Below, piece by piece: positions 1 to 13,644 of a stretch of DNA of 13,970 nucleotides. The stretch spans positions 1 to 13,970 of the forward strand of contig JACVGT010000020.1 of assembly GCA_018992685.1 (NCBI GenBank). The letters are read 5' to 3'. This stretch comes from Theionarchaea archaeon (GTDB taxonomy: Archaea; Methanobacteriota_B; Thermococci; Methanofastidiosales; SZ-28-30). Within the stretch, counting starts at the first letter, position 1; every line of letters begins with the position of its first letter. The notes under the pieces are model-generated. The model had not been told where the DNA came from and did no database searches. It saw only the letters and a program-made list of their open reading frames with translations. Both the position numbers and the translations under genes were made by a program.

Positions 1-453
1 GGGTCGAGAGTTCAATACAGGGACAATATCTGTGGAATTGGTCCCACAGTCTATCACCAGACCATCCTCAAACAGGTTCAAGTAGGACGTCAAATAGCAG
101 GTGGCGACCCAGTTCCTGCAGGCTACGTTCAAGTAGTGCTCTCTGGCTTCTGAAGCTGTGTACAGACGAGAAGAAAGACCCAGGTATCGCACCCTGTCGC
201 CAAACAACCGTTCAGTCACATCAATAATGTAATGGGTCCCCTCCCTTGCAGAAGAAAATAATTGACGACTGATACACAATGTCTGGGTGACGACAACAAA
301 ATCAGGAGAGCCAATGGAGAAAATGAGAGTTTCAATCATTTTTCCCTCACTGAGAAAGGGGATGGACATGGATTTTACATCCAGCCGGGTTTCTGTGAAG
401 TTCAGTTGTGTGAGCTTGACATTTGCTCCTCCAATGTCGACACCAGCAATCAC
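1..453 (-). CDS. MfnF-like hydantoinase-fold protein, N-terminal 151 codons (partial, runs off left edge)
   Basis: Frame is open without a stop from position 453 to the window edge. It starts at GTG (453-451); the only upstream in-frame codons before a TAA at 480-478 contain no other start. The N-terminus reads M-I-A-G-V-D-I-G-G-A-N-V-K, the nucleotide-binding opening of the hydantoinase/oxoprolinase family annotated as 'H4MPT-linked C1 transfer pathway protein'. Further on are E-G-T-H-Y-I-I-D-V (about residues 76-84), N-W-V-A-T and I-D-C-G-T-N-S-T-D-I-V-P, matching the family's phosphate-binding segment (usually DiGSTTTDiIP). In methanogens MfnF joins the furan unit to glutamyl-tyramine in methanofuran synthesis, so this function is likely but inferred. 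A TATA-like box lies about 26 nt upstream of the GTG, suggesting a leaderless mRNA. The remaining C-terminal part is outside the window. The family call is fairly sure; the exact reaction is less so. Confidence 0.78.
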   Translation of the reverse strand, partial: MIAGVDIGGANVKLTQLNFTETRLDVKSMSIPFLSEGKMIETLIFSIGSPDFVVVTQTLCISRQLFSSAREGTHYIIDVTERLFGDRVRYLGLSSRLYTASEAREHYLNVACRNWVATCYLTSYLNLFEDGLVIDCGTNSTDIVPVLNSRP

Positions 454-485: not shown

Positions 486-708
486 GACTGAGGCGGAAGA
501 TCTGCCACTACGATATCGTGAGGTAAGACAAAATCTGGAGCCTCATAGTGCGGAGAAGACATGGGATTTTCGCCTCGGTGCTTCTTCCACCCGAAATGCC
601 AAAAAAAGTGTTCATCCTATCCTTTGTGGAGTACACCCGAATACTGGCAGTGAAGATAAAAGACATGAGAATGAGGGCGCCTGGTTTCTGTATGGCTTTG
701 AGTCGAAA

Positions 709-720
709 ACCTTATATGAT
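709..720 (+). promoter_or_regulatory. TATA-like box for the radical SAM/SPASM operon
   Basis: The sequence ACCTTATATGAT, preceded by purine-rich CGAAAA that could act as a BRE, lies about 60 nt upstream of the preferred GTG start at 776. It would give a short leader of roughly 35-40 nt that includes the GGAGG ribosome binding site. Confidence 0.45.
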
Positions 721-765
721 CTCTGATTCTCATTGCATAGAAGAGAAGGAATCAAGAGATGTCGA

Positions 766-772
766 GGAGGTG
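766..772 (+). promoter_or_regulatory. Shine-Dalgarno that decides the start of radical SAM gene 1
   Basis: GGAGGTG ends four bases before GTG 776. It is the only strong ribosome binding site upstream of this frame. A start at 776 also makes the N-terminus (M-K-S-S-Y-Y-N) align with that of the downstream paralogue (M-K-E-S-V-Y-N). Confidence 0.6.
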
Positions 773-775
773 TCC

Positions 776-2071
776 GTGAAGTCATCATATTACAACCTGT
801 TCTTTCCTCATGACGGGAAATTCATATTGTTCAATGCGTTGAGAGGGCCCATCTTCGTGGTTGATTCTGAAATCAAGCGCATCCTTGAGAAAAACGAGAT
901 ATCGTTCTTAGATGAGGAGCTTATTCATACGTTCGCAGACAATGACATAATCGTTGAAGATGAATTGAATGAGCAGGATGTGTACCGACTCCTCTTCGAA
1001 CGTTCGAAATACAGTACCGTTTCAACAACTGTGGAGGTTGTCACGACATATGCCTGTAATCTGGCGTGCACGTACTGTTATGAAGGAAAGGGTGAGCTCG
1101 AAAGCAAGAAGATGGATGAAAGGACAGTAGAATGTGCTTTAGAATTCATAAAAGGACTGGTGAGCGGCAATAACAGTACGGAGCTGAAAGTAACACTGTT
1201 CGGTGGTGAGCCGTTGCTGAACATGCCAGCGAATGTACTGCTTGCGGAGGAATTATGCCGATGGTGTGAGGAAAATAGTAGAGACTTTTTCATCAATGCA
1301 GTGACCAATGGAACACTCCTTGCTGAGGAGACCGTTGAAGACTTGGCTCAATACAACTGTGGCTTTCTGGTGGTCCTAGACGGCCCCCGAAAAATCCACG
1401 ATCAACGAAGAATGTACAAGAATGGAGAAGGAACCTTTGACGATATCTGTGAGGGGTTACATCGTGTTACTGATCATGGGTTAAGAATCAATATTCGGAT
1501 AAACTTGGATCAAACAAACAGAGACCACATTGTGTCTTTCTTCGAATTCTTGAAGCAAGAAGGCCTCACTGATATATCACTTAATATTACACCAGTTTTC
1601 AAGACGTCCCCTGCGTGTTCATCGTACAGCTATTGCATGACAGACATGGAGGGAGCTCTTGCTGCAACAGATCTCTACAATGTGGCCCGATCTATGAATA
1701 TTACGGTGGGGAGAAAGGACAGACCTTCGTGTCAAGGTGCGTGCAGAGCCCAAAAATACTCGAACTTCATCATAGATCCTTTTCTTAGGCTATTCAAGTG
1801 TAATATCCAGCTGCCCTTTTCGAAAAATGCAGTGGGCAGAATCAATCCGGAGAATTCAGAGCCGGAATTCAACCAGCTCTACTTTGATTTAATGCTACGA
1901 GATCCTTTTTCAGTTCAGGAATGTAGAATCTGCAGGCTTCTCCCCCTGTGTCGGGGAGGCTGCCTTGCCAAGGAATTTGAGAACATGGGTTCTGCCCGCG
2001 AGAAGATGTGCAGAAAACAACCGGTCTATGAAACACTGCAGGAGGATCTCAGAGCCTTCGTCAAAAAGTGA
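776..2071 (+). CDS. Radical SAM/SPASM domain enzyme 1
   Basis: Cytosolic iron-sulfur enzyme of 431 aa from the GTG start; the frame is open further upstream (ATG 548 and others) but those starts lack a ribosome binding site. Residues 1-90 form the N-terminal region common in radical SAM peptide maturases (Y-N-L-F, then F-N-A-L-R-G). The radical SAM core carries C94-x3-C98-x2-C101 for the catalytic 4Fe-4S cluster, and a G-G-E-P motif binds SAM. The C-terminal SPASM region has C319, C342, C383-x2-C386-x5-C392-x3-C396 and C412, enough ligands for two auxiliary clusters. Members of this class install thioether or carbon-carbon links in ribosomal peptides, or oxidise protein residues (anSME type); the reaction here is unknown. 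Its paralogue starts 63 bp downstream with the same spacing of cysteines, so the two are probably co-transcribed and may act on one substrate or as a pair. Confidence 0.85.
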   Translation: MKSSYYNLFFPHDGKFILFNALRGPIFVVDSEIKRILEKNEISFLDEELIHTFADNDIIVEDELNEQDVYRLLFERSKYSTVSTTVEVVTTYACNLACTYCYEGKGELESKKMDERTVECALEFIKGLVSGNNSTELKVTLFGGEPLLNMPANVLLAEELCRWCEENSRDFFINAVTNGTLLAEETVEDLAQYNCGFLVVLDGPRKIHDQRRMYKNGEGTFDDICEGLHRVTDHGLRINIRINLDQTNRDHIVSFFEFLKQEGLTDISLNITPVFKTSPACSSYSYCMTDMEGALAATDLYNVARSMNITVGRKDRPSCQGACRAQKYSNFIIDPFLRLFKCNIQLPFSKNAVGRINPENSEPEFNQLYFDLMLRDPFSVQECRICRLLPLCRGGCLAKEFENMGSAREKMCRKQPVYETLQEDLRAFVKK

Positions 2072-2084
2072 GGAAGGTGATGAT

Positions 2085-2138
2085 ATGGCCAGCCCCAAAG
2101 GCGCCGTATCCTCTCCAGCAATGAAGGTGACTCTATGA
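2085..2138 (+). other. Candidate 17-aa peptide ORF between the two radical SAM genes
   Basis: The ATG at 2085 follows GGAAGGTGAT with normal spacing and opens a 17-codon frame, MASPKGAVSSPAMKVTL. Its TGA overlaps the ATG of the second radical SAM gene (ATGA at 2135-2138). The placement resembles a translational coupling leader or a tiny substrate peptide. It has no cysteine, which argues against a thioether substrate. The GGTGA at 2126-2130 inside it serves the downstream gene. A chance frame is quite possible. Confidence 0.25.
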
Positions 2139-3463
2139 AAGAATCCGTATACAACGTGTATCTTCTGGATAAAGAAGGAGCGGATTGTCTGGTGTACAAT
2201 GTCCTGCACAGATCATTACTCCGTATTGACAATGAAGTCTTTCAGCTGATGAGATTGAGAAGAATTGACTGCATTGATGATGGAGTTCTGAAGGTACTCA
2301 AGAATGAAGGAATTGTCGTTGACGATGGTCTCAATGAATCTGACATGTTGAAGATCAGATTCAACAGAGCCAAGTACAGTGCAACCTCTCGAGGATTCAC
2401 CATCATTCCAACTCATGCCTGTAATCTGGCATGTAAGTACTGCTATCAGGGGCACGGTGACGTGCTGAGTGCCACGATGAATACAAAGACTGTGGAGCGG
2501 ACCATTGAATTCATCAAGAAGAATGTGACAGGATGTAAGAATCTGGACGTGAATTTCTACGGGGGGGAGCCCTTACTAGTTCCAGACATTGTGTTCAGGG
2601 TGGTGGAGGAGTTGCAGCATTTTGCAGATGAATCAGGTATTCATTTCTCAGCCTCCTTCACTTCCAATGGTACTCTTTTCACAGAAAGCATAATCGCAAG
2701 ACTCAAAGACTACAACTGCAGGGTGCAGATCACGTTCTGCGGTCCGAGGGAGGTGCATGATAGTATACGCGTTGATAAGCGAGGAAACGGCACATATGAC
2801 AAACTCATCAGTGTTCTCACACTGTTCAAAAAGCATGATATGGCGTTCCACATACGTGTGGATGTTGATCAAGATAATCTCGCAACAATCGATTCGCTGC
2901 TGAGAGACTTGAATGAAAAGGGATTCGGAGGCCTCTACATTGCATTTTGCTCTATAAGTAAGGATATTTGCTATACTGAACCTGACTGGGATTTAGAAGA
3001 AGTGAATGTGAAAGAACTGGCTCTTCTGTGTAAGAAGGCCCAGGATATGGGATTCACGACATTCCCAGTATATATACATAATTTCGTTGAAAAGTGCAGC
3101 GCCCTACCGGACAGGTATTTTGCCATTGATCCCAAGGGAGACATATACAAATGTATTGCGGCTTCGGGGTATCCTGAACACAGACTTGGGACGTTGAACG
3201 AGAAGGGTGAAATTGTGGATATGGACTATGAGGCCTACTGCACATGGACACTGAGAGATCCGCTTTTGATAAAAGAGTGCGCAGCATGCAAGTTCGCACC
3301 TCTCTGTGGCGGCGGATGTTCTCTGGTGGCATACCAGAAATATGGTTCAATAAATGCAGCAGGATGCAAAGAAAAGGAGCTGGGAGAAATTGTACTCACT
3401 GTTGTCAAGCTCAGATACCCGGAATTATTTGAGGGGCATCACTACGAAATCGTTGAACTCTAA
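2135..3463 (+). CDS. Radical SAM/SPASM domain enzyme 2
   Basis: A 442-aa paralogue of the preceding gene, similar over its whole length. The start is ATG 2135 with GGTGA at 2126-2130. The N-terminal segment has Y-N-V-Y then L-V-Y-N-V-L. The radical SAM motif is C96-x3-C100-x2-C103 (C-N-L-A-C-K-Y-C), followed by Y-G-G-E-P-L-L. The SPASM cysteines C321, C340, C382, C385, C391, C395 and C411 fall at nearly the same positions as in enzyme 1, so both should carry one SAM cluster and two auxiliary clusters. The sequence has an extra C-terminal tail of about 20 residues after the SPASM region. Known relatives mature ribosomal peptides or modify enzyme side chains; the substrate here cannot be named. 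Tandem duplication followed by divergence is the simplest origin. Confidence 0.86.
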   Translation: MKESVYNVYLLDKEGADCLVYNVLHRSLLRIDNEVFQLMRLRRIDCIDDGVLKVLKNEGIVVDDGLNESDMLKIRFNRAKYSATSRGFTIIPTHACNLACKYCYQGHGDVLSATMNTKTVERTIEFIKKNVTGCKNLDVNFYGGEPLLVPDIVFRVVEELQHFADESGIHFSASFTSNGTLFTESIIARLKDYNCRVQITFCGPREVHDSIRVDKRGNGTYDKLISVLTLFKKHDMAFHIRVDVDQDNLATIDSLLRDLNEKGFGGLYIAFCSISKDICYTEPDWDLEEVNVKELALLCKKAQDMGFTTFPVYIHNFVEKCSALPDRYFAIDPKGDIYKCIAASGYPEHRLGTLNEKGEIVDMDYEAYCTWTLRDPLLIKECAACKFAPLCGGGCSLVAYQKYGSINAAGCKEKELGEIVLTVVKLRYPELFEGHHYEIVEL

Positions 3464-3468
3464 AATTG

Positions 3469-3473
3469 TTTTT
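3469..3473 (+). terminator. Weak T5 tract after radical SAM gene 2
   Basis: TTTTT follows the stop codon by five bases. Archaeal transcription can end at T tracts without a hairpin, but five Ts are marginal. Because no clear TATA box lies before the methyltransferase gene, read-through into it is likely. Confidence 0.25.
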
Positions 3474-3505
3474 CATAGGGGGATCCTGCCGAGAATCCGG
3501 GAACA

Positions 3506-3610
3506 ATGTGTGACCAGGAAATTACCTCATCAGCAATGTGGCCCTCCCGTAGTCTTCATGATGATCCTGGGCTTTCTGTTCTGAATCTGAAGTCGTTCCC
3601 AGTAGAGTGA
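3506..3610 (+). other. Candidate 34-aa small ORF before the methyltransferase
   Basis: ATG 3506 opens a 34-codon frame in the 157-bp gap between radical SAM gene 2 and the methyltransferase, ending 10 bp before the latter's ATG. The product starts M-C-D-Q-E-I-T and ends L-N-L-K-S-F-P-V-E, with one cysteine and one tryptophan. The position between modifying enzymes fits a precursor peptide. There is no good ribosome binding site upstream, and no leader/core boundary can be seen. It may well be a chance frame. Confidence 0.22.
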
Positions 3611-3620
3611 GAGGTAGCAA

Positions 3621-4361
3621 ATGATAGAGTTCAACCAGCACCTTTATGGGCAGGACGTGCGAATGGTACCTGGAGATGTGGTGAGAATAATGACGACGTC
3701 CCCACAAGAAATCAGCAGAGTGACACGATCAAAGGAAGAAGCCCGCAGAAGTTATGACAGAATGAGCACATGGTATGATTTCCTGGCAGGCTCTGAGAGA
3801 AGGCATACACATGAAGGCTTGCAGAAACTCAACGTGAGAGACGGTGAGACGGTCCTGGAGGTTGGATTTGGCACAGGTGAAAGTATTGTTTCACTGGCTC
3901 ATTCAGTGGGTTCTTCAGGTGCAGTCTATGGGATTGACATATCCTCGGGAATGTTCTATGCTGCCATAGAAAGAGTACGAAGGGCAGGGCTCCAGGATAG
4001 CGTGGGGCTGATCTTGGGTGATGGTGCACACCTTCCTTTCAAGACGCATATCTTTGATGCTGTATTCATGAGCTTCACGTTAGAACTCTTCGATACTCCA
4101 GAGATTCAGGTTGTGCTTACTGAGTGCAGGAGAGTTCTCGTGGAAGGTGGTCGTATTGGTGTGGTGGCAATGTCCAAAAGGGGAAGGCAGGGTATCATGG
4201 TAGACCTGTACGAGTGGGCGCACAGGACTTTTCCTCAGTACGTGGACTGTCGGCCCATTTATGTTCGAAATGCACTGGAAGAGGGTCAGTTTCATATTGT
4301 TGATGATACAGCTATGTCCATGTGGGGATTGCCTGTGGAGATCGTTGTGGCACAGACCTGA
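3621..4361 (+). CDS. Class I SAM-dependent methyltransferase (UbiE/COQ5-like)
   Basis: A 246-aa soluble methyltransferase. ATG 3621 is preceded by GAGAGGT with six bases of spacing. The Rossmann SAM-binding motif is V-L-E-V-G-F-G-T-G at residues 78-86, followed by G-I-D-I-S as the acidic residue binding the ribose, G-D-G-A-H-L-P-F, and R-R-V-L-V-E-G-G-R. The S-Y-D-R-M-S-T-W-Y-D-F-L-A-G segment (residues 44-57) is typical of archaeal and bacterial UbiE-type proteins annotated as methyltransferase type 11. The substrate could be a quinone-like lipid, a small molecule or a modified peptide. No TATA box is evident in the gap before it, so it may be read through from the radical SAM pair; the shared SAM chemistry makes a common pathway plausible but unproved. 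A terminator hairpin follows about 65 bp downstream. Confidence 0.82.
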   Translation: MIEFNQHLYGQDVRMVPGDVVRIMTTSPQEISRVTRSKEEARRSYDRMSTWYDFLAGSERRHTHEGLQKLNVRDGETVLEVGFGTGESIVSLAHSVGSSGAVYGIDISSGMFYAAIERVRRAGLQDSVGLILGDGAHLPFKTHIFDAVFMSFTLELFDTPEIQVVLTECRRVLVEGGRIGVVAMSKRGRQGIMVDLYEWAHRTFPQYVDCRPIYVRNALEEGQFHIVDDTAMSMWGLPVEIVVAQT

Positions 4362-6400: not shown

Positions 6401-7188
6401 ACAGAAAGCTCCTGGCTACCCTTGGTGTTATTCTCATTTTCATCATTTCCTTTATTTATATTACAGCATCAGGGATATCACAACTGTCCAATGAGACAAT
6501 CCTTTTTCTCTTTCTGGATGAAACCAGGGGAGATCAAGGCACAGTAGAAGTAGCCAGCATTGCTCTCTTCAAAGATGCCCATCTACAGGGAAGTCTCATC
6601 AAGGTTAGCCCTCTCTCGTCTACAGAGGCCCTCAAGTCTCAGGGGGTTTACTTGTCTGACACCTTGGTCAAATCTTCCAGCCTGGCAGAAGGGTTACAGA
6701 ATGCCCAGGACATCGTTGAGACGACAGCTCAGATGAAGGTGGACAGAGTGGTACTCATTAATGCCGTCGCTCTGAAATCTGTGATAGATGCAGTCCATCC
6801 CATTCCTGTGGACATCTACGTGACCCCTCAGGTGCTTGACCGGCGATTCAGTTTTCCCATCAACACCTCCGTGACAGGACAACAGGCAGAACAATGCATC
6901 CGGGGTCAGTTCTATCCCGGGGTTACTGATGAAACCCTCCTATCCATGCCTGAAGACTATCTATGGGAAGTAAAGGCTGACATCATCAACAGTGTCACCC
7001 AGACACTCTTTGACTTCTCTGCCTATACCCCTGAAGAACAGAAGAGTCTGGCCCACGTCTCAGTGGAGCAATTCAGGTCTGATCTCATTTACGTGCACCA
7101 CAGGAACACCGTTCTCACCCTGGTGTACCATCTCCCAGAATCTGTGGCCAAGTACATTGTGAACTTCGCAGTGAGACGAATTGCATGA
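6397..7188 (+). CDS. Membrane-anchored extracytoplasmic protein, possibly LCP-like
   Basis: 263 aa from GTG 6397, which overlaps the previous stop in GTGA and has GGAGG nine bases upstream; an earlier ATG at 6322 lies inside the preceding gene and is unlikely. Residues 4-24 form one hydrophobic helix (L-L-A-T-L-G-V-I-L-I-F), an N-terminal anchor or signal, so the rest is probably outside the membrane. The pattern E-T-I-L-F-L-F-L-D-E near the start, S-D-T-L-V, and later V-D-R-V-V-L-I-N followed by V-I-D-A-V-H-P-I-P-V-D-I recalls the LytR-CpsA-Psr fold. The arginine-rich catalytic stretch of true LCP ligases is not evident, so enzymatic activity is doubtful. Its stop overlaps the start of the deacetylase gene (ATGA). 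Confidence 0.6.
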   Translation: MNRKLLATLGVILIFIISFIYITASGISQLSNETILFLFLDETRGDQGTVEVASIALFKDAHLQGSLIKVSPLSSTEALKSQGVYLSDTLVKSSSLAEGLQNAQDIVETTAQMKVDRVVLINAVALKSVIDAVHPIPVDIYVTPQVLDRRFSFPINTSVTGQQAEQCIRGQFYPGVTDETLLSMPEDYLWEVKADIINSVTQTLFDFSAYTPEEQKSLAHVSVEQFRSDLIYVHHRNTVLTLVYHLPESVAKYIVNFAVRRIA

Positions 7189-8228
7189 CAGACAAACCGT
7201 CCTTTCTCTATACTGATGAATTTCTCAGTTATGATTTTACCGGCATGCATCCACTAAAACCCATTCGATTGAAACTCACTTATGACACCATGAAGGTGAG
7301 GAAAACAGTGGATGAATTCGATATCGTTGAGCCCCGTCCAGCCACAGAAGAGGAATTGTTGCAGGTTCACACTCCAGATTATGTCAATGCAGTGAAGCAG
7401 GCAGACAAAGGAATTCCCCAGTTCAAATACGGACTGGGGACCTCTGACAATCCCTTGTTTCCCGGAATGTATCACAGCTCCCTGATCTACACGGGTGCCT
7501 CCATCTGTGCAGCAGAACATCTGAAGCGGAAGGACATGGCGGTCAATATTTCTGGGGGGCTGCATCACGCCCACCCTGCACAAGCAGCTGGATTCTGCAT
7601 TTTCAATGATCCGGGACTGGCCATTGCCACACTCCTCAAGACCCATGAGAAGATAGCGTATGTTGATATTGATGCTCATCACGGAGATGGAGTCCAGGAG
7701 ATTTTCTACCGATCCAACAGGGTATTAACCATTTCCCTCCATGAATCTGGCCAGTTTCTGTTCCCCGGGACGGGATTTCCTGATGAAATCGGGGAAGGTG
7801 AAGGGAAGGGCTACAGCGTCAACATCCCCTTCAATCCATATACGGCAGCTGATGTGTATATTGAGAGCTTTCTGGAGGTAGTTCCCCCCTTGATCACAGC
7901 ATTTCAGCCCGATGTCCTGGTGTGTCAGCTGGGAGTGGACACCAATACTGATGATCCCTTGGCTGACTTTCGACTGAGTATCCAGGGATATTTAAAGGTC
8001 GTGGAACTGATCAAGAACCTTCATCCCAGGAGAGTTGTTCTGGGTGGCGGGGGGTACAACTTGAATGTGGTTCCCAAGGCATGGTCCATGGCAATGGCAG
8101 TACTTGTAGGCCATAACCTGGATATCCCCTTCGAGTCTACGTATACAACGTCAGATAACGGAAGAGAGTACGCTGAATCCATGGTGAAAGAGGTTAAGCG
8201 GCTGGTGTTTCCATTTCACGGACTTTAG
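7185..8228 (+). CDS. Histone deacetylase / AcuC family zinc amidohydrolase
   Basis: A 347-aa cytosolic enzyme of the arginase/deacetylase fold. Visible are the charge-relay histidines H127-H128 with H130-P in G-G-L-H-H-A-H-P, A-G-F-C-I-F-N-D-P (residues 135-143), zinc ligands D163 and H165 in V-D-I-D-A-H-H-G-D-G, the third ligand D252 in L-G-V-D-T-N-T-D-D-P-L, and the transition-state tyrosine Y291 in L-G-G-G-G-Y-N. All catalytic residues of class I HDACs are therefore present. In archaea such proteins remove acetyl or other acyl groups from lysines of proteins such as chromatin proteins or acetyl-CoA synthetase (AcuC role), or from small molecules; the target here is unknown. It is the last gene of an operon with two membrane proteins, its ATG overlapping the preceding stop. 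No separate ribosome binding site is seen, which fits coupled translation. A T7 tract follows. Confidence 0.9.
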   Translation: MTDKPSFLYTDEFLSYDFTGMHPLKPIRLKLTYDTMKVRKTVDEFDIVEPRPATEEELLQVHTPDYVNAVKQADKGIPQFKYGLGTSDNPLFPGMYHSSLIYTGASICAAEHLKRKDMAVNISGGLHHAHPAQAAGFCIFNDPGLAIATLLKTHEKIAYVDIDAHHGDGVQEIFYRSNRVLTISLHESGQFLFPGTGFPDEIGEGEGKGYSVNIPFNPYTAADVYIESFLEVVPPLITAFQPDVLVCQLGVDTNTDDPLADFRLSIQGYLKVVELIKNLHPRRVVLGGGGYNLNVVPKAWSMAMAVLVGHNLDIPFESTYTTSDNGREYAESMVKEVKRLVFPFHGL

Positions 8229-8375: not shown

Positions 8376-9284
8376 ATGAGTATTCCAGTAATTTTCCATG
8401 AGTACATGGAGCTGATCAACAGGAAGATAGACGAAATCTTCCAAGAAGACGATCCTTCCATCAGAGATATTGCACTGTACCACATCAGAGCTGGAGGAAA
8501 GAGGGCGAGACCCATATTGTCAGTATTGACCTGCCAGGGACTTGGAGGCACACTTGAGGACGTTCTCCCCTCTGCACTAGCTCTCGAAATCCTGCACAAT
8601 GTCTCATTGATATACGACGACATGATCGATGGGAACGTACTGAGGAGGGGACAGGAACCTCTCCACGTCAAATTTGGCCACAAAAACGCACTGCTCGCAG
8701 CAAGTTATCTTACCTGGAAGGCTCTGGAGGTTTTCTCAGAGAATGTGAAGCCTGCTGCCTTGAAGGAACTGGCCTATGCTGCCCGCATGACCACACTGGG
8801 CGAGAAGCTGGATATTGACTTTTCCCGGGTGACAGAAGAGGACTACATGCGTATTTGCGAGGCTAAAACCTCCTATCAGTTCAGTGTTTCCACATTTCTT
8901 GGTGCAATTGCTGCTACTGACGATGAGGCGATCCTGCAAGAATCCCGGCGTTTTGGAAAAAATCTGGGACTCGCTTTCCAGATAAGAGACGATATCCTCA
9001 ATATAGTGGGGAAAGAATCCGTGTTTGGAAAACCTGTGGGGACAGACCTTCTACAAGGCCGACCCAATTTTGTTGTTGTGAAAGCACTTGAGAAAGTAGG
9101 AGACACCCTGTACGAGGGTGACACAGCACAGAAGATAATGGAAAGTGGCGCGGTTGAGGAAGCAACCAGGACGGCTGAAGACTATCTGGAGAAGGCCAGG
9201 CAGTTCCTCGATATGTTTACAGTGGACAAGTACAGGGAGATGTTGGATGTGATGGTTCAGTTCATCATCAGGAGAACGCTCTAG
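8376..9284 (+). CDS. Polyprenyl diphosphate synthase, probably geranylgeranyl diphosphate synthase
   Basis: 302 aa from ATG 8376; an upstream ATG at 8247 would add 43 residues across the promoter and was rejected. The trans-isoprenyl diphosphate synthase features are G-G-K-R-A-R-P (residues 40-46), the first aspartate-rich motif D81-D-M-I-D85 in S-L-I-Y-D-D-M-I-D, the R-R pair at 90-91, G-E-K-L-D-I-D-F, the second motif D205-D-I-L-N209, and G-K-P-V-G-T-D-L. It condenses isopentenyl diphosphate with allylic diphosphates; in archaea the C20 product makes ether-lipid side chains. The residue five before the first motif is valine, not aromatic, which fits a product of C20 or longer. The last aspartate of the second motif is replaced by asparagine, a mild departure. 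The 3' end overlaps the convergent helicase gene by 17 bp. Confidence 0.87.
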   Translation: MSIPVIFHEYMELINRKIDEIFQEDDPSIRDIALYHIRAGGKRARPILSVLTCQGLGGTLEDVLPSALALEILHNVSLIYDDMIDGNVLRRGQEPLHVKFGHKNALLAASYLTWKALEVFSENVKPAALKELAYAARMTTLGEKLDIDFSRVTEEDYMRICEAKTSYQFSVSTFLGAIAATDDEAILQESRRFGKNLGLAFQIRDDILNIVGKESVFGKPVGTDLLQGRPNFVVVKALEKVGDTLYEGDTAQKIMESGAVEEATRTAEDYLEKARQFLDMFTVDKYREMLDVMVQFIIRRTL

Positions 9285-12200
9285 CAAATCGAGTGTCTTT
9301 GGTTGGTCTCCCATTGATGGTGCGGATTGATATGTGTTCTGAAGGTAGTTTTACTAGGATTGTTCCCCAGTAGTCCTTATACTCTCTAAACAGATAGAGG
9401 TCAGCTTGATTGTCCTCAGTGGTGTAGTACCCTGCGGGAACTCCATTTACCAGAATGATTGTCCCTTTCAAAGGCCATTCCTGGCGGTGGAGAAGACAAT
9501 AGGGATCTGTATCAGGGAGGAAGAGTATGGAATCTTCTTCTGGAGACTCTTCCTCTGGAGACTCTTCTTCGGGAGGCAGAGCGTAAAACACCTCATTCTG
9601 GTGGAATACCTTCTGCCCTGTTTCATCAAGCAGGGCCTCAATGATGTACAGTTCTTCATCCACCAGTTCCTGTACCTGGAAAGGGGACACGACTCCAAAG
9701 GATTTCAGTATCCGCTTCACCAGCTCTGGTACATCAGGGTCTGTGTATAGGTGTGCATCTTCAGGGAGGCAGACGTATTCTGTGTCATGATAGGAGACGG
9801 TCACCGCCTTTCCAGTCTGGAGCAGGTTCTGTACGTCCTCTGTGGTCCTCTTCTGGACTGATTTCACATTCAGAAAAGGCAGCTGGAGGGCAGTGGCAGC
9901 AGGATTCATGCTCAACAGGGACTGCAGTCTCAGCTGGGATTTGTAGACATGGTGCAGTTCTTCTGGTAGGGGTGGTGCTTCCACCAGGATTTCATTCACA
10001 AGAGGGACACCTGCACGTTCAGCTATTTTTTTCAAGGACTCTGGCTTCACCGTAATGTTTCTGGCTCCCTGGCACCTGTAAAACCGGTAGACCCTCATAA
10101 CCTCCTCCAGCAGCTCATGTGGAGATACTGAATCGTGGAGCTCCAACGCTTCCACACAGAAGGTATCACCCACAGTGAAGAGAATCCCTCCCGCCAGGTG
10201 TCCGTCAGCCAGAATTGGTGAGAAGGAATCCCCCAGCTCAGAAGAGCTCTCGTGCCTGATCTTGTCATAGAGGGGGTCAGTATGATCAATGATTCTGATT
10301 CCTGCAGGAAGCTCCGCTTTCATAACCTGAAAGTCTTCTTCTGTACAGTACATCTCTTGAACGATGCGAGAAAACACGGTGACCTTTCTGAACTCTTCAA
10401 GGACTGGATCCAGATCATCTGAGAAGCCCGTATGGTATAAGATCTCTTCCCTGGATACAGGACCACACGAACGTATGTATCTCCTGATAATTTCTCTTCT
10501 TGCTTCTTCAGGGGAGGTGCTTTCTGCATCTAATGGATAGAATCTGTTGTGTTCATCGCGATAGACATACAGGTGCTCCTCCAGCCCGTTGAAATACGAT
10601 CCACACGCGTCAACAATATCCCTTTTTTTCAGTCCGGGATGTTCCCGGATGAACTTCAATATGTGAACTTCTCCAGAAGGTATGTCCTGTCTGTAGGCTG
10701 AAACAAAGAGGGATTTGTGTTCAGGGAGGATGTAAACCAGTCTCCCTCTGACCTTGATCCTCACGAGTGTCTTTCTGAAAAATCCAATCCGATCATAGAT
10801 GGCCCTCCTTGATCTCATGTACCCATAAGCGTCAAATACTGCTTCCACAGAGGGATAGTCAAAGTGCTTCCGGGTTAAGAATTGATTAACAGTGCCAATT
10901 TCTATGCCTTCCCCATATTCAAGGTACCTCCTGTCCTTGATTAACATGTACTGCAGGACAGGGGCAGTGAAATATCCACAGGACACTTCGTTTTCCTCAA
11001 TGAGAGTATCAAGGACTTTCTCAGCCCTCTTTGCGTCAATATCAAGGTCAGACTGTATCTCTGTAGCCGTTCGTATCCCGGCGTACAGGATCGTCAGGAC
11101 AGCATCTTTCAATGCATCATCCGAAAGCGAGTCTCCCATGGGAAATGGGTCTTGTATCCGTTCTGCAAAATACTCTTCCACTGCTGAGAGAGAAAAAGCA
11201 GGAGTCTTTTCGATAATTCTCTCTGTAACTGCCTTCTGCATGTGCTGCAGGAATTCGCTGCGGTCTTTCAGGGTGATCACATCCTGGGCTCCTGTCATGA
11301 CAATGGATAGGGCAAAGGGTGATGGAATGGTGGTGTATTCAGATACCACCACCTCGATTTCCCCATTTTCAGTTTTCCTGAGAACCTCCAGTGCGTGGTT
11401 ACAATCCAGGGCGGAATACAGCACTTCATTGAAGGTCTCTTTAACCAGAGGGAAGTCGAAAGGCAGCTCTTTCAGCAACGAACGGGCCCTGAAGTACTGG
11501 GTACGGGGAGTGACAGACTTCCCTTTGTACCGTTTCAGGAGGAGGAACCCTCGTTCTGCACAGTGTCTGAATCGCTGACAGAAGAGTTCTGTTCCCCATA
11601 CAGAGGCTCTAATGACTTCAAGGAATTCCTCACTTCGTAGTATATCTGGGGAGAAATTGAGGGATTTCCTCGAATTGAGCATGAACCCATTGTCAGTCAC
11701 CGTAAAATCCAGGCAGGACAATTTCTGCCCATACCCTCTGGCCAGGGCTTCATTGACTCGTCTTCCAAAGGGACTGTGAAAGATCAGGTGGTAGGTGTGG
11801 TCCCCATCTATGTATCGTTCCACAAAGAGTACGTCTGCCGTGGGCATGATTCCTGTGGCTTTCTTCTGTTCCTCGATGTACTGCTGGATATCAGGATCAG
11901 CCCCTCCACAGAGCAATACCTCTTTTCTAAAGTCTGAGAGATCAGCCCCAAATTCATATGAACGCGAGAGTGCTTCTCCCCTCCAGGAGGGAACAGTGGG
12001 CTTTCCTCCCAGGGCATCTTTCACCACCACATACATTCCTTCAGTCCTGATAAATTCCAGAGAACGTCCTCCCAGAACGAATATGTCCTTGGCCTTCAGG
12101 TGGGAGACAAAGTGTTCTGATAGGGTACCCAGAGGAATGCCATCAAGAGCCACGGTGAAGGTGGCCTGTGACGGGATAGTCCCGCAGTTCAAAAAGTAGA

Positions 12201-13644
12201 GGTAGAGAGAACTCTTTACTCTCCCGAAATTCTGGCCATCAAACCACAACTTCCTGTACACATGTTTTTCCTCCAAATCTGCGTAGTACCCCCCCAGGTA
12301 TTCCAGAACAGTGAGAAAATCCTCGTATCCCAGGTCAGAAAAACAATAGGAACCCCGGATGACCCTGTATGCTTCGTTACTATCCCACACCTGTTCCAGG
12401 CTCATGCCAATGAGATGCTGGGCCAGGACATCAAGACAGTTGTGGGGGATTTCCACGGGCTCCAGCCTATAAGACAGGGCCTTTCTCTTGAGAATCTCCA
12501 GTTCCACCAGTTCATCTCTGTCCTGAGCAATCAACACCCCCTTGGAGACGGCATCCCTCCCATGTCCTGCCCTCCCCACCCGCTGCATGAGCTTCGCAGT
12601 ATTCTTAGGAGAGCCCAGCTGGACCACCAAATCTACATCCCCCACATCTATGCCTAATTCCAGGGATGTGGAGGTAATGACGGATTGGATGGAACCTTTC
12701 TTCAACAGGTGCTCAATTTCCTGCCGGGTTTCCTTACCCATGCTCCCGTGGTGAGCTGCCACCGAGTACAATTCGCGGTTCTTCAACTGGTAGACAATTC
12801 GTTCTGTCCGGGAACGTGTATTGGTGAAAACAATGGTAACATTGTGTGATTCAATGAGTTCTTTGAGGATATCATAGCTTTCGTCTATTGACTTCTCCAA
12901 GGAAAGAGAAGAAAGTGAGGCAGGCTTCACGATGGAGAGATCATACTTTTTTTCCTTTTCAGCTATGAGAACATGACAGGAACGGTTCGTCCCCACAAGG
13001 AATTTTCCAATCTCTTCTACTGGTGCCTGGGTGGCCGAAAGTCCAATCCTTACAAAGGGGCCGGCAATATTCTGGAGGCGTTCCAGTGATAATGAGAGAG
13101 ATACACCCCTCTTGGTATTGCATACGTCGTGAATTTCATCTATGATCACGTATTTGACCTTGGTCAATTTTTCTCTGAATTTGGGAGCATTCAAGATGAT
13201 TTGCAGGGTCTCGGGAGTGGTAATGAGAATGTGAGGGGGAGTTTTGAGCATTTTTGATCTTCTGTAGGATGAGGTATCTCCTGTCCGGACAACCACACGA
13301 ATATCTGCAAACGGAGCTTCCTTCTTGATCCCCTCCAGGGGAATCATCAAGTTCTTCTGTATGTCATTGGACAAGGCCCGCAGGGGGGATACATATATGA
13401 CGTAGACCATGTCCTCAAGCTGGGCCTTTTCTGCTTCGGAGACCAGATAGTCGATAGAAACCAGAAACCCTGCCAGTGTTTTTCCACTTCCTGTGGGAGA
13501 AAGGAGGAGGATGTTCTGATCGTCTTTGAGCAGGGGGAAGGCTAGTCTCTGGGGTTCTGTCAGGGAATGAAAGGACGAGGAGACCCATGCCCTGACTGCG
13601 GGATGAAACAGTGAGATGACGGAAGCGTCGCTATCCATGGGCAC
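9268..13644 (-). CDS. lhr: Lhr-family ATP-dependent helicase, long form
   Basis: A 1458-aa superfamily 2 helicase involved in DNA repair and recombination in known members. Motifs in order: Q-motif region E-P-Q-R-L-A-F (30-36), Walker A P-T-G-S-G-K-T (50-56), S-P-L-R-A-L (86-91), T-T-P-E-T (142-146), D-E-I-H (169-172), S-A-T (203-205), T-S-T-S-L-E-L-G-I-D (324-333) and Q-R-V-G-R-A-G-H (354-361). A winged helix and the Lhr beta-barrel core should follow to about residue 800. Beyond about residue 1000 lies a C-terminal extension with winged-helix-like patterns, as in bacterial long Lhr rather than the roughly 900-aa archaeal short forms. An acidic E-S-P-E-E repeat sits near residues 1356-1370. 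The start ATG 13644 has GGAGGAG just upstream; ATG 13638 is possible. The protein is intact and stands alone, flanked upstream by an insertion sequence. Confidence 0.92.
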   Translation of the reverse strand: MPMDSDASVISLFHPAVRAWVSSSFHSLTEPQRLAFPLLKDDQNILLLSPTGSGKTLAGFLVSIDYLVSEAEKAQLEDMVYVIYVSPLRALSNDIQKNLMIPLEGIKKEAPFADIRVVVRTGDTSSYRRSKMLKTPPHILITTPETLQIILNAPKFREKLTKVKYVIIDEIHDVCNTKRGVSLSLSLERLQNIAGPFVRIGLSATQAPVEEIGKFLVGTNRSCHVLIAEKEKKYDLSIVKPASLSSLSLEKSIDESYDILKELIESHNVTIVFTNTRSRTERIVYQLKNRELYSVAAHHGSMGKETRQEIEHLLKKGSIQSVITSTSLELGIDVGDVDLVVQLGSPKNTAKLMQRVGRAGHGRDAVSKGVLIAQDRDELVELEILKRKALSYRLEPVEIPHNCLDVLAQHLIGMSLEQVWDSNEAYRVIRGSYCFSDLGYEDFLTVLEYLGGYYADLEEKHVYRKLWFDGQNFGRVKSSLYLYFLNCGTIPSQATFTVALDGIPLGTLSEHFVSHLKAKDIFVLGGRSLEFIRTEGMYVVVKDALGGKPTVPSWRGEALSRSYEFGADLSDFRKEVLLCGGADPDIQQYIEEQKKATGIMPTADVLFVERYIDGDHTYHLIFHSPFGRRVNEALARGYGQKLSCLDFTVTDNGFMLNSRKSLNFSPDILRSEEFLEVIRASVWGTELFCQRFRHCAERGFLLLKRYKGKSVTPRTQYFRARSLLKELPFDFPLVKETFNEVLYSALDCNHALEVLRKTENGEIEVVVSEYTTIPSPFALSIVMTGAQDVITLKDRSEFLQHMQKAVTERIIEKTPAFSLSAVEEYFAERIQDPFPMGDSLSDDALKDAVLTILYAGIRTATEIQSDLDIDAKRAEKVLDTLIEENEVSCGYFTAPVLQYMLIKDRRYLEYGEGIEIGTVNQFLTRKHFDYPSVEAVFDAYGYMRSRRAIYDRIGFFRKTLVRIKVRGRLVYILPEHKSLFVSAYRQDIPSGEVHILKFIREHPGLKKRDIVDACGSYFNGLEEHLYVYRDEHNRFYPLDAESTSPEEARREIIRRYIRSCGPVSREEILYHTGFSDDLDPVLEEFRKVTVFSRIVQEMYCTEEDFQVMKAELPAGIRIIDHTDPLYDKIRHESSSELGDSFSPILADGHLAGGILFTVGDTFCVEALELHDSVSPHELLEEVMRVYRFYRCQGARNITVKPESLKKIAERAGVPLVNEILVEAPPLPEELHHVYKSQLRLQSLLSMNPAATALQLPFLNVKSVQKRTTEDVQNLLQTGKAVTVSYHDTEYVCLPEDAHLYTDPDVPELVKRILKSFGVVSPFQVQELVDEELYIIEALLDETGQKVFHQNEVFYALPPEEESPEEESPEEDSILFLPDTDPYCLLHRQEWPLKGTIILVNGVPAGYYTTEDNQADLYLFREYKDYWGTILVKLPSEHISIRTINGRPTKDTRFARAFS
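9541..9570 (-). repeat. 15-bp tandem duplication inside the helicase gene
   Basis: Two 15-bp units starting TGGAGACTCTTC (plus strand) follow each other with one mismatch. They are in frame and encode the repeated acidic E-E-S-P-E segment, probably a flexible linker. A replication-slippage origin is likely. Confidence 0.7.

Follow-up and report, generated by a model that had tools for sequence, protein, structure and literature searches.

We analysed a 13,970-nucleotide stretch of DNA from a sediment archaeon of the Theionarchaea (contig JACVGT010000020.1 of assembly GCA_018992685.1), here called the window. It is the whole of contig C33 of genome G000, a 3.03-Mb draft assembly that is 91% complete, and was compared with the sister genome G001, the 88% complete draft of a genus-mate. 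The window carries two adjacent genes, RS1 and RS2, for radical S-adenosylmethionine (SAM) enzymes with SPASM domains, which probably mature a ribosomally synthesized and post-translationally modified peptide (RiPP). The pair and its surroundings contain the following features:

776..2071, + strand: RS1, a radical SAM/SPASM peptide maturase of the CefB-like clade; GTG start, 431 amino acids, with an N-terminal domain resembling a RiPP recognition element (RRE)
2135..3463, + strand: RS2, a paralogous radical SAM/SPASM peptide maturase of 442 amino acids
709..720, + strand: conserved promoter-like element of RS1-RS2 with putative function, including the TATA-like CTTATATG at 711-718
762..770, + strand: likely ribosome-binding site of RS1, GAGGAGGTG, read from the sequence, 5 bases before the GTG at 776
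3621..4361, + strand: UbiE-like class I methyltransferase (Pfam PF01209/PF13649)
1..453, − strand: MfnF-like gene (NCBIfam TIGR03123/NF040623), cut by the contig end and divergent from RS1

An earlier note, made from the letters of the window alone, had described two full-length radical SAM/SPASM enzymes followed by a class I methyltransferase, and the genes are as it described them. The RS1 and RS2 open reading frames (ORFs) are intact, lie 63 bp apart and both match Pfam Radical_SAM. The CX3CX2C motif is formed by C94/C98/C101 in RS1 and C96/C100/C103 in RS2. Seven SPASM cysteines follow in each protein (C323/C342/C383/C386/C392/C396/C412 and C321/C340/C382/C385/C391/C395/C411, respectively). 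These cluster motifs are colinear in the two proteins, the seven SPASM columns are invariant in 12-sequence alignments, and both enzymes look catalytically complete. Predicted models have confidence (pLDDT) values of 87 for RS1 and 84 for RS2. The first 80 residues of both are predicted to adopt the RRE arrangement of three strands and three helices, with the winged helix-turn-helix following the strands (E7-12/E15-20/E26-29/H31-38/H47-55/H66-78 in the RS1 model, with RS2 alike). The best PDB matches by fold are CteB and TigE for both models, followed by the anaerobic sulfatase-maturing enzyme (anSME), ChlB with leader, and SuiB; CteB also ranks first by sequence for both proteins.

The top NCBIfam match is CefB (NF038107), with 315 bits for RS1 and 284 bits for RS2, whereas the anaerobic sulfatase maturase family TIGR03942 gives 86 and 111 bits, far short of its cut-off of 349. 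By family (CefB-like) and by fold (CteB/TigE), RS1 and RS2 stand nearest to peptide maturases and not to sulfatase maturases. These comparisons bear on the resident-protein substrate suggested in the earlier note. On that reading the pair would have no peptide of its own and would instead modify a protein of the cell, in the manner of the maturases of sulfatases or of quinohemoprotein amine dehydrogenase. Such a role would fit the presence of anSME among the top structural matches, but it sits poorly with the large difference in family scores and with the RRE-like N-terminal domain of both enzymes, which lies outside the anSME match.

RS1 and RS2 are ancient paralogues inherited as a pair. There are four copies of RS1 across the two Theionarchaea genomes, one in the window and three in G001 on contigs C64, C52 and C105 (77%, 54% and 52% identical to the window copy), and RS2 adjoins RS1 in all four. 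The order is RS1-RS2 in the window and C64, and RS2-RS1 with a 20-bp overlap in C52 and C105. In a 54-protein tree the RS1 and RS2 clades each have 100/100 support and are sister to one another (94/81), and their subtrees mirror one another as ((C33,C64),(C52,C105)). Given the matching subtrees and constant pairing, the simplest account is a single old duplication that produced two partners, which were later copied and moved together. The ratio of nonsynonymous to synonymous substitution rates (dN/dS) between the window and C64 copies is 0.064 for RS1 and 0.128 for RS2, values low enough to indicate that purifying selection has kept the window copy functional. Beyond the genus, order-mates have only a few radical SAM proteins that match, and those do so loosely. 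A contig database scan returned the sister metagenome-assembled genome as the sole close relative (54%); its other matches were all bacterial, at 23-30% over long matches and at most 38% over short segments. No relatives of the pair were found in the viral contigs searched.

A promoter-like element of putative function is conserved where a clear promoter had been proposed ahead of RS1. Window positions 689-786 align to 516-615 of the C64 contig with 83% DNA identity, and the TATA-like box keeps both its flank and its distance to RS1 in this 77%-identical orthologue. The terminator proposed after the methyltransferase is no better than chance: between 400 and 4700, two terminator-like sites were observed against 2.8 expected from shuffles. 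Three short ORFs were considered and set aside. Most of the stretch holding the ORF at 469-726, upstream of RS1, is not conserved at C64. A 17-residue ORF between RS1 and RS2 (MASPKGAVSSPAMKVTL) has no conservation there either. A 34-residue ORF at 3506-3610 (MCDQEITSSAMW...), considered as a candidate precursor, has a C64 counterpart of 34 residues, with little similarity and overlapping a convergent gene.

The earlier note had also tied the methyltransferase to the pair, and a three-gene peptide-modification operon, with radical cross-linking followed by SAM-dependent methylation, would account for the shared strand and order of the three genes. It would also agree with the result of a check for a separate methyltransferase promoter, which found no clear TATA box ahead of the gene (best 6/8 at 3470), and with class I methyltransferases close to some other clusters, for example the orphan precursor on C97 described below. 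A T-run and a gap of 157 bp follow RS2, however, and comparison with G001 speaks against the link: the sister genome has no methyltransferase orthologue (top score 48 bits), the closest relative belongs to another family and has no radical SAM neighbour, and the orthologous C64 pair is followed instead by a convergent P-type-ATPase-like gene. Since the sister genome lacks an orthologue, we place the methyltransferase outside the RS1-RS2 unit. We regard it as a neighbour with no relation to the pair, and the operon is highly improbable.

In G001, a new family of small ORFs with the features of precursor peptides has seven members. Three surround the C105 pair, one lies beside the C52 pair, and three are orphans on contigs C97, C1 and C106. 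The C105 precursors, MIARLIEPGNIDDAVILGNCIVIGANPKNGECQGLGWDPSSGCNLGGLPFEH, MLAELVEPGISISGSSPDWWVCIIGGTPTKEQDCVPYGKFPAGIGDCGIGGTPGS and MMAKLIESGNTDDAVILGECVLGGEPLNGDCVIYGSKPHLTYCIWGGLPQYKPW, each have a GGAGGTG site, and a decayed copy is also present. The C52 precursor, MYAKLISEEVDSSGGILGNCRNGYSPAEPGECRTGKVPYLHCYLGNFPWM, has a TATA box ahead and a T-run after it, a setting like that of a transcription unit. The leader M-x-A-x-L-[IV] is common to all members, as are three cysteines, which for the most part fall within C-x(2-4)-G-x2-P blocks. No such ORF appeared in 1000 shuffles each of the C105 and C52 flanks, and the two tested members (C105, C106) have no NCBIfam match. The family was previously unnamed, and its members are probably substrates modified by RS1/RS2-type pairs.

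Because pairs in the sister species adjoin this cysteine-containing peptide family, we regard RS1-RS2 as a real peptide-maturation unit, and assign a probability of about 0.7 to the reading that the two radical SAM/SPASM enzymes together mature a RiPP as one unit. Their motifs are complete, their genes are co-inherited and under purifying selection, and precursors adjoin two of the pairs in the sister species. The checks proposed in the earlier note lean the same way in part: homologues occur as a pair in four of four copies with mirrored trees, and family scores and fold comparison place the paired enzymes with RiPP maturases and away from sulfatase maturases. Short precursor ORFs lie beside two of the sister-genome pairs and missing at the window and C64, and the methyltransferase is not conserved with the pair.

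Several observations weigh against this interpretation. Neither enzyme reaches the CefB equivalog cut-off of 600 bits. No member of the precursor family lies beside the window pair or the orthologous C64 pair, compared with three beside C105 and one beside C52. A profile of the family, searched against the window genome at E<=10, returned one fragment with E 0.9 and an internal stop, and a leader-pattern scan of that genome gave no plausible short ORF. The window has no protease or transporter tied to the pair. Both genomes compared are incomplete drafts (G000 91%, G001 88%), and the C64 contig carries a 100-N gap within RS2. This N-run lies at 3243-3342 of L054 in reverse-complement coordinates; about 100 bases are repeated on either side of it, and the repeat is an unmerged overlap, not a real duplication.

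As the earlier note had stated, the window contains no cysteine-rich precursor; it has no repeat precursor either, nor is a CefA-type (NF038108) peptide found beside the pair. The substrate of the window copy may be encoded in trans, lie in sequence that the assembly lacks, have escaped recognition or belong to another precursor family. Since selection maintains RS1 and RS2, decay is less likely than a precursor that acts in trans, was left unassembled or is of a different kind, and the orphan precursors of G001 suggest that separation of enzyme and precursor occurs in the genus. Selection on a pair that has no local precursor, both in the window and at C64, would suit action on a resident protein. 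The family can be explained without a resident protein, however, and the sister-clade pairs adjoin precursors; that alternative is distinctly unlikely. Another suggestion of the note, a substrate encoded elsewhere, fits the maturation unit, and a substrate for the window copy was not found.

The wider complement of related enzymes raises a further alternative, that the window pair is a promiscuous or shared maturase acting in trans on other peptides that its genome encodes, for instance those of the C13 locus or those with a KxLxxKxW leader. Related radical SAM enzymes number about 30-50 in the genus and about 30 to 40 in a single genome, and many of them form tandem pairs. The CefB profile matches 43 times in the window genome and 53 times in G001 at E<=0.001 (counts that include distant radical SAM proteins and split matches), the RS1 query matches 31 places in its own genome, and tandem pairs occur in at least 9 of the loci retrieved. 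Other tandem SPASM pairs of the window genome have local cysteine-rich or repeat precursors in many cases. Sharing would be compatible with the abundance of precursors and maturases in a single genome and with the three orphan precursors, which suggest that action in trans occurs in the genus. The C13 and KxLxxKxW peptides, however, have adjacent pairs of their own, which fall elsewhere in the tree, and their leaders are unlike M-x-A-x-L-[IV]; we consider a shared maturase rather unlikely.

Several of these other precursors merit description in their own right. The repeat peptide MFMKSVVSDENLNLKDESGTLY(CALEVQPTF)n lies just upstream of another tandem SPASM pair (L060 10883-11110, − strand, G000:C2) and has a counterpart in the sister genome (L067 ~10610-10730, − strand, G001:C128). 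It has five copies plus a partial one in the window genome and four in the sister, as perfect 27-bp repeats with a strong GGAGGTG site, and probably ranks as the window genome's most striking RiPP precursor. A 35-residue peptide, MNMTILIEAEEQIMEPLCITEGTGSWCC[KR]ICHPYV, precedes a SPASM pair in both species (C154/C13; L051 upstream of 3359, + strand; L052 upstream of 11054, − strand). It differs by one amino acid between them (dN/dS 0.05) and is followed by a hairpin-like stretch and a T-run. A second precursor family, with the leader MKA-x-x-[LV]-N-K-K-[LT]-W and short Cys/Gly-rich cores, accompanies many SPASM pairs in both genomes:

L059 10930-11088, − strand: precursor with this leader
L068 7270-7422, + strand: precursor with this leader
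L065: several precursors with this leader
L066 8637-8777, + strand: precursor with this leader

Small proteins of the type M...YIRWSDNCVWQ... also lie beside SPASM genes (L069 4018-4668, L062 7296-7946, L065 16230-16856, L088 2204-2818), and may be PqqD-like.

In both genomes the MfnF-like gene is found upstream of RS1 as a conserved neighbour; its DNA matches the C64 contig at 78%, and it is outside the RS1-RS2 unit. Downstream of the pair, at 7185-8228 and 9268-13644, lie ordinary genes for a histone-deacetylase-family protein, a polyprenyl synthetase and a helicase of the Lhr type that also matches an AlkZ-like domain. A search of the window near the pair for tandem repeats and structured RNA gave only short repeats of 8 to 15 bp and a tRNA-Leu.

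For the RS1-RS2 maturation unit we propose the following mechanism. The RRE-like N-terminal domains would bind a precursor of about 50 residues through its short leader, M-x-A-x-L-[IV]-[ES], and RS1 and RS2 would probably act as a complex, by analogy with TrnC/TrnD of thuricin CD. Both enzymes would abstract hydrogen atoms from the core, and the three cysteines, lying in C-x(2-4)-G-x2-P blocks, would become linked to nearby residues through cross-links of the thioether type, as CteB and TrnC/TrnD would lead one to expect. We advance more tentatively, at somewhat less than even odds, that this is an undescribed archaeal RiPP class in which a co-evolving heteromeric SPASM pair jointly cross-links the three blocks of a precursor that is able to act in trans. 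This class would belong to a genus whose 3-Mb genomes hold dozens of maturases, many in tandem pairs, and several unrelated precursor families. The Theionarchaea enzyme pairs and their several new precursor families form a natural series in which to ask why one peptide should need two paralogous radical enzymes; so far few systems, thuricin CD among them, have given an answer. With the C105 and C52 precursors, the need for one enzyme or both can be tested directly.

Comparison with known systems places the unit among peptide maturases. We found no RiPP system of Theionarchaea in the literature searched. The anSME proteins share the radical SAM and SPASM core with seven cysteines; RS1 and RS2 differ from them in family score, in their RRE-like domain and in having no sulfatase nearby. 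CteB (PDB 5WGG/5WHY), which forms thioethers, and TigE (8VPO) are the closest solved folds, including the N-terminal domain, but share about 17-21% identity by structural alignment and are single enzymes acting on other precursors. The system of CefB and CefA (NF038107/NF038108), in which cysteine recurs at every fifth position, is the top named family over the full length of both proteins. RS1 and RS2 also group with Thermococcales CefB-like proteins that adjoin Cys-rich peptides, one of them CefA, and some Thermococcales leaders (WIVEP, EIIExGS) resemble L-I-E-P-G-N by eye. Unlike CefB, a single enzyme, RS1 and RS2 are two paralogues, which score about half of the equivalog cut-off, and the tested sister-genome precursors do not match CefA, having three C-G-P blocks in place of the five-residue spacing. 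Thuricin CD TrnC/TrnD, which act as a complex via RRE domains (PMC12093266), and RumMC1/RumMC2 likewise comprise two adjacent motif-complete SPASM enzymes with one precursor set. RS1/RS2 differ from the thuricin CD pair in being archaeal, in their precursor family and in a gene order that is swapped between copies. Two-enzyme SPASM maturation of RiPPs is a kind of system already known, and RS1/RS2 represent a new variant of it with putative chemistry and substrate.

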